64,000 nucleotides of DNA from positions 1,491,501 to 1,555,500 of the forward strand of contig NZ_CP009170.1 in assembly GCF_000763575.1 (NCBI RefSeq), given 5' to 3'. The notes under the pieces are model-generated. The model saw only the letters and a list, made by a program, of their open reading frames with translations. It ran no database searches and had not been told where the DNA came from. The DNA comes from Thermoanaerobacter kivui (GTDB taxonomy: Bacteria > Bacillota > Thermoanaerobacteria > Thermoanaerobacterales > Thermoanaerobacteraceae). Positions within the stretch are counted from its first letter, which is position 1. The number at the start of each line of letters is the position of its first letter. Of this stretch, positions 15,863-62,600 are shown in pieces. The translations under genes and the position numbers were made by a program.

Positions 15863-15998
15863 TCAATTTTGTAAAATTATCAGTTTGTTGCCAAACCTTT
15901 TTGATATGTAATAAGATACTTCCGCAATGCACTTTACGCATAAAAGCGGAGACTTTTTAAATGTGACTTTGTTTATAGTCTGTCAATTTTGTAAAATT
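15863..15998. mobile_element. 104-bp mini-element between 16-bp palindromic direct repeats
   Basis: TCAATTTTGTAAAATT occurs at 15863-15878 and again at 15983-15998, flanking 104 bases. Inside, the left end reads CAGTTTGTTGCCAAAC and the right end, inverted, reads CAGACTATAAACAAAGT, both like the ends of the elements at 50.0 and 53.9 kb. Bases 15912-15962 are an exact 51-base inverted match to 50018-50068. It encodes nothing. The right repeat overlaps the last codons of degU. Confidence 0.75.
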
Positions 15999-16609
15999 GT
16001 TCCATTTTTTAGCATATATATGGCCGCTTTAGTCCTATCTTTTACATCCAATTTTTTGAAAATATTGTAAACGTGATTTTTTACTGTTTTTTCGCTCAAA
16101 AATAATTTTTGGGCAATTTCTTTATTGCTATAGCCTTTTGAAATGAGCGTAAGAATTTCTATCTCTCTTGCCGTTAGTTCTTTCTTCAAATTTTCGTGGT
16201 CTACATTATCTATTTCTTCCATTAAAGAAGGATGAATGTAAACTCCTCCATTGTAGATGATTCTTATTGCTTTTATGAGGTCGTCATATTCAGCATCTTT
16301 CAATATGTACCCTTCTACTCCCAGTTTAAGCGCTTCCACCAAATATTCCCTATCGTTATATATCGTCAAAAACAAAATCTTTGTTTGATGTTTTTCTTCT
16401 TTCAGCATTTTAGCTGCCTTTATACCATTGATTATTGGCATATTTACATCCATAAGAACCAAATCTGGTTTCAACTCTTTTGTAAGCTTATACGCCTCTT
16501 CCCCATTAGAAGCTTGCGAGATGACCTTTATGTCTTTTTCCATTTCAATAAGCTGAACTAACCCTTTTCGTATTAAGGCATGGTCATCAGCCACCAATAA
16601 CTTGATCAT
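15983..16609 (-). CDS. degU: NarL/LuxR-family response regulator, DegU-like
   Basis: About 208 residues. The receiver domain has ADDH at the start, phospho-acceptor Asp in LVLMDVNMP and Lys in YILKDAE. The C-terminal LuxR-type HTH reads LTAREIEILTLISKGYSNKE. The start is ATG 16609 after AGGGGTG; it overlaps degS by 23 bases, so the pair is translationally coupled. In Bacillus, DegU controls exoenzymes, competence and motility; targets here are unknown. The final codons lie in a duplicated palindrome that bounds the mini-element. Confidence 0.88.
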   Translation of the reverse strand: MIKLLVADDHALIRKGLVQLIEMEKDIKVISQASNGEEAYKLTKELKPDLVLMDVNMPIINGIKAAKMLKEEKHQTKILFLTIYNDREYLVEALKLGVEGYILKDAEYDDLIKAIRIIYNGGVYIHPSLMEEIDNVDHENLKKELTAREIEILTLISKGYSNKEIAQKLFLSEKTVKNHVYNIFKKLDVKDRTKAAIYMLKNGTILQN

Positions 16610-49559: not shown

Positions 49560-49976
49560 TGAATGATGTTATATCTTTTAGGTGTATAAACACTACTTTG
49601 AGTGAACTCCTCGCGATAAGTATATTGCCACAATGAAAAGTGAAATAGAGAAAATTGTAGGGATTAATTTTACACAACATATTTTAAAATATGAAAACGA
49701 TACTGAATGGTTTGTGTTATTAAATGGTATGAAAAAAATCGCGAATCTGGCTGACAATTTTTCAAGACCCCTATGAACCAATTAACAGAATTATAATAAA
49801 TGAGTTTTTGTTACCAAATGAAAATGATAACAAAGGATTGGAAAAAGAAGTAAGTTATATCAAATTTTTTAAAACATATTTGAGTTATATCTGTTTATTT
49901 AAATGATTCTTCTCTATTTTGGATGGATATGGGATTTATTTTAGAGGAAACAGGAATCTATCTTACACTAAAATAA
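49560..49976 (+). pseudogene. decayed unknown gene
   Basis: Plus-strand coding signal broken by at least three shifts. Pieces: MNDVISFRCINTTLSELLA; then MKSEIEKIVGINFTQHIL to KKIANLADNF in another frame; then FQDPYEPINRIIINEFLLPN and KTYLSYICLF; last LNDSSLFWMDMGFILEETG to YLTLK and a stop at 49974-49976. Together they suggest one former protein of about 135 residues. I do not recognise the family. It was convergent with pepV and shared a terminator with it. Confidence 0.45.
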
Positions 49977-50322
49977 AATCCTTCGTTGTGAAGGATTTTA
50001 GAGTGTAGACAAAGTCCATTTAAAAAGTCTCCGCTTTTATGCGTAAAGTGCATTGCGGAAGTATCTTAGTGTGTCTTGGCGAAGTTTTGGAAAAGCAGCT
50101 TCCCATGAGCAGCTCTTAAATAATTATTTCCTTAAAAGAATTTTTGTAAACTTAAATTAAAGCTTCCTTTCATGTAAGAAAGAAAGCGAATTCGGAAGCT
50201 GCCCAAAGGAAGCCTATGACACGACTTAGATACGTAAGCCTGCACTTTAATATAAAGCTGGAGACTTAATTTAACATAAAAGTTTGTCAACAAACTCAAA
50301 TCCCTCGTTGTGAAGGATTTTA
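49976..50322. mobile_element. 297-bp mini-element between 25-bp hairpin direct repeats
   Basis: The palindromic terminator AAATCCTTCGTTGTGAAGG+ATTTTA occurs at 49976-50000 and, with one change, at 50298-50322. Between them are 297 bases with no gene. Ends: GAGTGTAGACAAAGT on the left and, inverted, GAGTTTGTTGACAAAC on the right, related to the IS1182-type ends at 53.9-55.4 kb. An imperfect inverted pair about 50 bases long starts with AAGTCTCC (50023) and GGAGACTT (50262). Bases 50018-50068 match the mini-element at 15.9 kb exactly. Probably a MITE. Confidence 0.75.
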
Positions 50323-53792: not shown

Positions 53793-54003
53793 GCAAATCT
53801 CTCCTTTTATTAGTTTTACCATATATAATATTAGCAAAAAAGAAACATTAAATCAAACAAAAATCTACTAACCAAACAATTTTTCAATAAAAAATACCAT
53901 GAAAGCCATGGTATCAGACTTTAGACAAAATTTCGGGATCCCGGTATAATAAAAGGGATCCCGCATTTTAATTTAAACAAAAAAATAAAAGGGGTAGAAA
54001 AAG

Positions 54004-54270
54004 ATGTTATCAAAAAAAGATGATGCAAGACAAAACAAATAGAATTTGTAAGCATAGATCAATTAGTTCCCCAAGATCACCTATTGAGAAAAATAGAAAA
54101 AGTCATCAAATTTGATTTCATATATGACTTAGTAAAAGATAAATACTCCAAAGATTATGGTAGACCAAGTATAGACCCAGTAGTACTGATAAAAATATTA
54201 TTCATTCAATACCTATTCGGTATACCATCATTGAGGAGGACAATAGCTGAAATAAAAACAAATGTACCTT
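54004..54270 (+). pseudogene. IS1182-family transposase, N-terminal fragment
   Basis: MLSKKDDARQNK, then a frameshift, then QIEFVSIDQLVPQDHLLRKI, LVKDKYSKDYGRPSIDPVVL and IPSLRRTIAEIKTNVPYF. This is the standard N-terminal DNA-binding region of IS1182/IS5-like transposases. Homology stops near 54270, before the first catalytic Asp. Confidence 0.85.
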
Positions 54271-54286
54271 ATTTTTCTTTTTTTAG

Positions 54287-54592
54287 TCAAGTTTCCTTAC
54301 ACAAAATATTATACATCATCCCACACAAGAAAAAAACAAAAACACCAATTATACAAATATATATCTCTAAGGAATTAGAATTTTCTAAAGCATTTTTTCT
54401 TGTTACACTAAGAATTTTCTTGCCATCTCTTATAACTTCGAGATTTTTTCCATCTTTAGAGTATATAGTTGAAATGTTTCCTTTAAATTTTGTGTTTAAT
54501 GCTTGTGCATTCGCAACATTGATTAAATTTGTTATCATAACAACAACCATTAAAAACACCGCAAGGAACTTTTTTGTAAAAATTTTATTCAT
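54287..54592 (-). CDS. small exported membrane protein, unknown
   Basis: 101 residues. The N-terminal signal segment FLAVFLMVVVMITNLINVANA is followed by AQA, a short extracytoplasmic part with NISTIYSKDGKNLEVIRDGKK, and a C-terminal membrane helix (IYICIIGVFVFFLCGMMYNI). RBS GGAGG lies 11 bases before ATG 54592, so it looks expressible. Family not recognised. It lies within the IS relic, after the 5S gene, with its stop at the edge of the transposase fragment; its 3' end may have been cut by the rearrangement. Confidence 0.5.
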   Translation of the reverse strand: MNKIFTKKFLAVFLMVVVMITNLINVANAQALNTKFKGNISTIYSKDGKNLEVIRDGKKILSVTRKNALENSNSLEIYICIIGVFVFFLCGMMYNILCKET

Positions 54593-54783
54593 TCACTTCT
54601 AACCTCCATCCATACAAATTTTATTTTGGAAGATCTTCCAATTCGATGGTAACATTTTATTATGAGAGTATCAACTTTCATTTTACGTCGTATTTTACTA
54701 TCTTTATAAGCTTTTCTTTTTTTGTTTTTTGTTGTTTTCTAAGTTTTTCAAATAAAAATCTAAGACTAATTTTTGAAACATTA

Positions 54784-54832
54784 AAATAAAAAAGAGATAG
54801 TCCATTTTAAAAACAGACTACCTCTTTTTAAA
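54784..54832 (-). terminator. terminator of 5S rRNA
   Basis: AAAAGAGGTAGTCTG pairs with AGACTATCTCTTTTTT-type sequence (GACTATCTCTTTTTTATTTT) on the minus strand. Confidence 0.8.
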
Positions 54833-54833
54833 T

Positions 54834-54943
54834 TACCGGCAGCGACCTACTCTCCCGCGAAAGCAGTACCATCGGCGCTGGAGGGCTTAACTTCCGTGTT
54901 CGGCATGGGAATGGGTGTTTCACCTACGCTATATCGCCACTTA
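54834..54943 (-). rRNA. 5S rRNA, isolated from 16S/23S
   Basis: The minus strand has the conserved 5S core CCCATGCCGAACACGGAAGT, TTAAGCCC..AGCGCCGATGG and GGGAGAGTAGGTCGCTGCC, with a helix I pair GTGGCGA/TCGCTGCC. The ends are estimated. No 23S or 16S sequence lies on either side. It has its own promoter and terminator. Confidence 0.93.
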
Positions 54944-55013
54944 TTCTTATTAATTTTTTGTTGCGAATAAATAGCCTTTAAATGCTAATACGTAGAATAT
55001 AAAAATATAAACT

Positions 55014-55042
55014 ATTATCCGTTGTTGTTATTGCGGTTTCAA
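55014..55042 (-). promoter_or_regulatory. sigma-A promoter of the isolated 5S rRNA
   Basis: Minus-strand TTGAAA, 17-base spacer, GATAAT, giving a start about 60 bases before the 5S 5' end. A stem-forming GCGGTTTC..CATCGC stretch overlaps the -35 region. Confidence 0.6.
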
Positions 55043-55159
55043 ACATCGCAATTAACTTTTAACATATTTTGGCAGTAATGCTCTTAAAAAGTGAAAAAAT
55101 TTTTAATCAGGCTGTAATAATTTGAGAAAAAATATTTTATGCCCTTAAAAAATGCTATC

Positions 55160-55385
55160 ATAATTTGAAAATCTTTGGAGATTTAATTTGAGAATTGACA
55201 GGACAATATTAAGAGGGATAAAAAAATTGTCCATGCAGGTGATGCTTATTTTCGCATGCATGAATTTAAAGAAATTAGCGACATGGTTATGGAAAAAAAG
55301 GAAGGGTTCTTCACCTTTCCATGATTTTTATCCAATATTTATCAAATTATATCCAAATACAAAGCAAACCCCACTTTTTACGTAG
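55160..55385 (+). pseudogene. IS1182-family transposase, C-terminal fragment
   Basis: RTILRGIKKLSMQVMLIFAC then MNLKKLATWLWKK, the typical last helix of IS1182 transposases (xxQxxLxxxCMNLKKL). The frame continues to a stop at 55385 within the terminator hairpin. There is no RBS; sequence left of about 55160 is not recognisable. Confidence 0.75.
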
Positions 55386-55401
55386 ATAAAAAGTGGGGTT
55401 T
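55366..55401. terminator. transposase terminator of the IS1182 relic
   Basis: AAACCCCACTTTTT and AAAAAGTGGGGTTT form a 14-bp stem around CGTAGAT-type loop sequence, after the transposase C-terminal fragment. Confidence 0.7.
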
Positions 55402-55450
55402 GTCGTCAATCTGAGACACCATGAAAGTCATGGTGTCTTTTAAAAAATAT

Positions 55451-62429: not shown

Positions 62430-62600
62430 TCAAAAGTTAATAGGTGCCCGCCTCCGCCATCCTTGGCTTCGTCCCCGCTTCCGTCTTTCGGTCTCGCTAA
62501 GTTTCCCGGCACTCAACTGAACGGGCTGGTCCTTTCTCTTATTCTCCTTTTTTAACATTTTCGGTTGAGTGCCGGGCTGTCAAGTCGCTTCTCTTGTGCA
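62430..62600 (-). other. GC-rich inverted-repeat element, unexplained
   Basis: About 170 bases, much richer in GC than the flanks. Arms CCCGGCACTCAAC (62505-62517) and GTTGAGTGCCGGG (62564-62576) are a perfect 13-bp inverted repeat around an A/G-rich loop. The minus strand also has an ORF of 42 codons (62558 to 62430, MLKKENKRKDQPVQLSAGKL at its start, strongly basic) without an RBS. It could be a structured RNA, a remnant of an intron or IS, or a chance ORF in a repeat. Confidence 0.4.

Follow-up and report, generated by a model that had tools for sequence, protein, structure and literature searches.

A group of IS1182-family elements, together with MITEs sharing their ends, targets hairpins, chiefly intrinsic terminators, and the entire hairpin is doubled on insertion. 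Judged from its sequence features, one such MITE is the non-coding element that lies between two copies of a terminator beside the pepV gene in the window, the whole 64,000-nucleotide stretch of Thermoanaerobacter kivui DNA analysed here (Table 1). The interest of these insertions lies in a target duplication whose length is set by structure and which both spares and multiplies terminators. The identity of the pepV-site element as an IS1182-type MITE and the duplication of whole hairpins as a general rule go beyond an earlier, sequence-only reading of the window, which had described the doubled terminator and the element between its copies.

The doubled terminator at pepV and its empty counterparts

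The repeated terminator flanking a non-coding element at pepV is real and was confirmed, with corrected sizes. The duplication had been put at 25 bp and the element at 297 bp; they measure 23 and 299 bp, since in comparison with other copies the ‘TA’ at 49999-50000 corresponds to the ‘CA’ opening their inverted repeat. In the repeat search, positions 49970-50000 and 50292-50322 were 90% identical, and the inner 23 bp of this repeat, AAATCCTTCGTTGTGAAGGATTT on the left and AAATCCCTCGTTGTGAAGGATTT on the right, differ by a single base. With its final base the right copy overlaps the pepV stop codon (50320-50322), of which this is the first base on the plus strand. Both hairpin copies are terminator-like on the minus strand, four such sites being found in 701 bases against 0.2 expected from shuffled sequences, and among the listed frames the longest one almost entirely inside the element encodes 55 aa (50132-50299).

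Table 1. Features of the pepV site and of the second MITE-A copy, with window coordinates.
Feature	Position	Strand	Basis or remark
MITE-A element, 299 bp, non-coding	49999..50297		multi-copy in own genome; end-to-end fold
Terminator hairpin, left copy, 23 bp	49976..49998		repeat search, terminator scoring
Terminator hairpin, right copy, 23 bp, 1 mismatch	50298..50320		repeat search, terminator scoring
Left terminal inverted repeat TAGAGTGTAGACAAA (consensus CAGACTGTTGACAAA)	49999..50013	+	same ends on IS1182 copies
Right terminal inverted repeat TTTGTCAACAAACTC	50283..50297	-	end comparison
Subterminal box AAGTCTCC, left arm	50025..50032		sequence
Subterminal box GGAGACTT, right arm	50260..50267		sequence
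pepV, M20 peptidase, 464 aa	50320..51714	-	served by right terminator copy; domain search
Decayed plus-strand neighbour, remains	49633..49975	+	open 143-aa frame in congener locus L146
Second MITE-A copy in window, internally deleted, 102 bp	15881..15982		family match
Duplicated palindrome of the 102-bp MITE-A copy, left TCAATTTTGTAAAATTAT	15863..15880		
Duplicated palindrome of the 102-bp MITE-A copy, right TCAATTTTGTAAAATTGT	15983..16000		

Nine congeners were searched with the pepV end. Eight of them (L145-L152) have one hairpin and no element, and the ninth (L153) has a different sequence there. These empty sites, together with the copies found elsewhere, support the proposal that a shared convergent terminator was split and doubled by an inserted element, which thereby survived both refuting conditions set in the earlier reading, a lack of other genomic copies and a lack of an empty site in relatives. 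The plus-strand neighbour is indeed decayed in T. kivui: in L146 a 143-aa frame is open at this place and stops just 5′ of the single terminator, convergent with pepV.

Empty sites were also compared for other insertions. For six IS sites of genome G002, four congeners were searched and the joined empty site was used for comparison; at five of the six a congener locus with exactly one hairpin was found, and for IS site L123 none of the four congeners searched provided an empty site that could be used. The best seven of the empty loci matched at 97-100% over 268-280 bp, six of them ungapped and L180 with one gap, and the remaining loci matched at 87-97% with gaps. Seven MITE sites were compared with 19 congener loci, in 15 of which both flanks were located. 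Ten of these 15 anchored loci were empty with one terminator (five of the ten hairpins scoring below 6), and the other five were occupied by another element, again between hairpins. At MITE sites L003 and L020 only one flank was recovered in congeners.

MITE families and the resident IS1182 element

Homologous copies of the pepV-site element, the MITE-A family, were indeed found: 27 matches at E ≤ 1e-10 in its own genome, corresponding to 21 places after merging of neighbouring pieces. Among the nine congeners, five contain 1, 1, 3, 3 and 2 matches and four contain none. Full copies are about 300 bp long, and copies of 138-250 bp are missing the middle part; the scored copies span 138-312 bp, are non-coding and multicopy, and thus have the size and copy number of MITEs. 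The family ends read CAG[A/T][C/T]TGTTGACAAA. Their 15-bp terminal inverted repeats are common to autonomous IS1182 copies, from which the ends of the pepV-site element differ by 2 and 1 mismatches; with the slightly mismatched target duplication and the empty congener sites at pepV, these are the features that assign the element to the MITEs. The family ends recur in a second family, MITE-B, which is about 263-333 bp long and gave 34 matches at E ≤ 1e-5. Searching for the end pattern with at most three mismatches yielded 117 forward and 129 reverse hits versus 77 and 79 when the pattern was reversed as a control. Short pieces of MITE-A and MITE-B lie at 1722-1756 and 62442-62504 of the window, and three MITE-A copies (L008, L009 and L012) have a common middle stretch, GGGTCATCCTGAGGAG or its complement, which the pepV copy lacks.

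The own genome contains five IS1182-family copies of 1566-1568 bp, the ends of which, CAGACTGTTGACAAA and CAGTTTGTTGACAAA, match the MITE ends. Their transposase scores 496.3 bits against NF033551 (cut-off 270), which places it in the IS1182 family, and carries the domains PF13751 and PF05598. A palindromic target is a feature of some IS1182 members (Siguier 2015, as cited in the available part of PMC5678879), and palindromic targets were likewise observed among the IS and MITE sites scored here. The shared ends, the multicopy spread, the empty sites and a duplication equal to one whole hairpin are all observed, and on this basis the pepV-site MITE was very probably moved in trans by the resident IS1182-family transposase, with duplication of one whole target hairpin.

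A variant of this explanation, with which it is compatible, is that the pepV-site MITE is by now an immobile fossil of the same route, the stems of its two hairpins being kept by the need for terminators. We regard this as possible but give it somewhat less than even weight. Full-length MITE-A copies diverge by 13-21% from the pepV copy, many duplications have decayed and the ends of the pepV-site element are imperfect, as a fossil would have it. Nevertheless, the five IS copies share 99-100% protein identity, hairpin duplications that are exact or nearly so flank three of these IS copies, and identity is likewise 99-100% among three MITE-B copies; the transposition machinery therefore looks recent. 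Two IS copies of the own genome deviate from the pattern, L061 with a 6-bp repeat and no hairpin, and L064 with no duplication and a hairpin on one side only; our guess is that these exceptions stem from earlier rearrangement.

Hairpin length and target duplication

The first scoring set comprised 43 elements, mostly of the same genus, with both ends resolved (17 IS, 14 MITE-A and 12 MITE-B). IS1182 copies of T. wiegelii (L084-L087) and truncated MITE loci were left unscored because one end was not cleanly found. A hairpin was counted as abutting when it scored at least 6 and lay within two bases of the element end. By this measure hairpins abut both ends in 26 elements, one end in 11 and neither in 6, so that 63 of 86 element ends are abutted, compared with 24 of 671 displaced windows. 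To this set 15 IS1182 relatives were added, bringing the total to 58 elements. The relatives were taken from 26 loci, 25 of which were obtained by surveying 398 genomes of the phylum (22 with a match) and one by a separate search. At 45-61% identity they obey the same rule, and they represent a selected sample, since they were picked for resolvable ends and repeat.

A clean target duplication is present in 35 of the 58 scored elements, the other 23 being mostly old MITE copies. Its length ranges from 17 to 35 bp, with a median of 23 bp, and follows the span of the hairpin closely (r = 0.94). The mean difference between duplication and span is 0.91 nt, against 4.6 nt for permuted lengths, the permuted minimum being 2.74 in 20000 trials. 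In the 35 clean cases the offset from the 5′ foot is 0 in 25, 1 in 6 and 2 in 4, and on the 3′ side it is -1 in two cases and otherwise 0-2. The target duplication made by DDE transposases is regarded as nearly fixed in length, and that of MITEs is usually short. A conventional stagger of constant length, about 20-25 bp, coupled with a preference for AT-rich terminators in which the hairpin is incidental, would accord with the median and with the many duplications of 20-24 bp. It is nevertheless very improbable, as the lengths range so widely, the ends fall so near the hairpin feet and permuted lengths never approach the observed fit; we rejected a fixed-length stagger as strongly disfavoured by the agreement of length with span.

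Duplications of 17-35 bp that track the hairpin point to a transposase acting on a cruciform or hairpin. We infer a route in which the target hairpin, usually an intrinsic terminator, would extrude as a cruciform, the transposase would link each 3′ end of the element to a 5′ foot of the hairpin, one per strand, and gap repair would then copy both hairpins. The 5′ feet of a cruciform meet at the junction at any arm length, so with a constant transposase geometry the duplication would equal the hairpin; hairpin length and not a fixed stagger would set the length of the duplication. Each flanking gene would retain a terminator, the insertion would be nearly neutral and the target would remain for further hits. 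We also lean towards the view that this clade of IS1182 transposases reads DNA shape, not sequence, and attacks the feet of extruded hairpins, so that the structure of the target dictates the duplication length and insertion multiplies the target. Were this true, gene ends would offer a self-renewing safe harbour, and one would expect tandem arrays of hairpin, element and hairpin as well as hits on the same terminator in different species.

The genomic placement of the elements was scored as well. Neighbouring genes were called on both sides for 26 of 34 elements, with 9 convergent, 17 tandem and no divergent pairs. In 33 of 35 cases one or both strands have a T-rich stretch immediately beyond the repeat, versus 910 of 2694 AT-rich control windows. 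At five congener loci (L261, L262, L263, L265 and L273) a different element sits in the same terminator, and L014 is a tandem array of hairpin, MITE-A, hairpin, MITE-B and hairpin. Because other elements reuse the same terminators and such an array exists, the terminator is a target that insertion renews. It is copied and not consumed, which leaves flanking genes with their terminators and a given terminator open to renewed hits; this explains how gene ends are invaded with no loss of a terminator to either gene.

Some details do not follow from the simple model. The loops of the left and right hairpins differ in L009, L014 and L096, for which it does not account, nor does it explain L240, where the right hairpin loop is the reverse complement of the left, as if inverted within the stem. 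The rule is likewise not followed by more distant IS1182 relatives, namely L249 (37% identity), with a 4-bp repeat centred in the palindrome, L250 (37%), with no repeat, and ISCfr1 (29%), with a 6-bp repeat. The repeat of L249 resembles the loop-only pathway c in the available part of Wan et al. 2017 (PMC5678879).

Related systems and the fold of the element

The staphylococcal elements IS1272 and TnSha1 resemble those described here in their IS1182-family DDE transposase, their inverted-repeat or terminator-hairpin targets and their little sequence preference, but differ in that, according to the available parts of both reports (PMC4923244, PMC5678879), part or all of the hairpin is removed and the target is not duplicated. 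Terminator hairpins are cut by these elements with deletion and without duplication (Furi et al. 2016, PMC4923244, as far as available). For IS1272 a replacement pathway was proposed, and beside it Wan et al. 2017 (PMC5678879) drew duplication of the whole stem-loop, pathway b of their Fig. 13, as a hypothetical branch for which the available part of that paper gives no example. Our hairpin duplications look like natural examples of pathway b, and would thus supply cases for a route previously drawn as a hypothesis. From replacement by IS1272 and duplication here, the IS1182 family seems to hold at least two outcomes. That the pepV site itself arose by IS1272-like replacement or cutting, where two similar hairpins were already present, is extremely unlikely: IS1272 is of the same family and targets terminator hairpins (PMC4923244, PMC5678879, available parts), but the congener empty sites hold one hairpin and two whole ones are present after insertion, and we found neither the hairpin removal nor the missing duplication of such replacement. 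Within the open-licence literature searched, Wan et al. 2017 alone combines IS1182, target site duplication and stem-loop.

Among the matches listed, the closest IS-named transposase is that of ISEfa7, an IS1182-like element of Enterococcus faecium (54.5% identity); its right end adjoins a terminator-like hairpin, and an IS256-family gene interrupts the left end of the copy examined. Group IIC introns, which are retroelements, likewise insert at terminator hairpins, but the window gave no Rfam intron match. The ISfinder table is said to list wide repeat lengths for IS1182, and parts of the rule may therefore be known to its curators. With bacterial MITEs in general our elements share short length, lack of coding capacity, inverted ends and variable internal deletions (PMC10969869); in the available part of that review both IS1182 and Thermoanaerobacter are absent.

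The sequence-only reading had seen an imperfectly self-complementary element that could form a long hairpin. This holds, except that the inverted arms are not limited to about 50 bases, as the whole length folds on either strand. With its terminators the element reaches -113.3 kcal/mol on the plus strand (z -7.7) and -119.4 kcal/mol on the minus strand (z -12.2), none of 100 shuffles being as good in either case, and the element alone gives z-scores of -9.5 and -8.3 (30 shuffles). Most simply, the folding of the MITE body into a long hairpin is a side effect of its inverted arms, which give such a fold on both strands. In the Rfam scan of the window no family attained its gathering score over the element and a permissive scan gave nothing credible, and a known RNA family was thereby ruled out; a solitary regulatory structure was ruled out because the element is multicopy and has empty sites. 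A functional non-coding RNA or regulatory element evolved in place with its own two terminators would suit the strong fold on both strands and the flanking terminators, but is most implausible, with Rfam gathering scores unreached, further copies at unrelated loci each bearing locus-specific hairpins, the element missing from congeners and many copies truncated or internally deleted.

A decayed IS1182 relative occupies positions 53915-55413 of the window, its segments 53915-54272 and 55201-55293 being about 81% identical to the intact IS. Hairpins adjoin this relative at both ends, ATACCATGAAAGCCATGGTAT on the left and a similar one on the right; its middle has been replaced, and the 5S rRNA gene (54834-54941) lies inside the interval.
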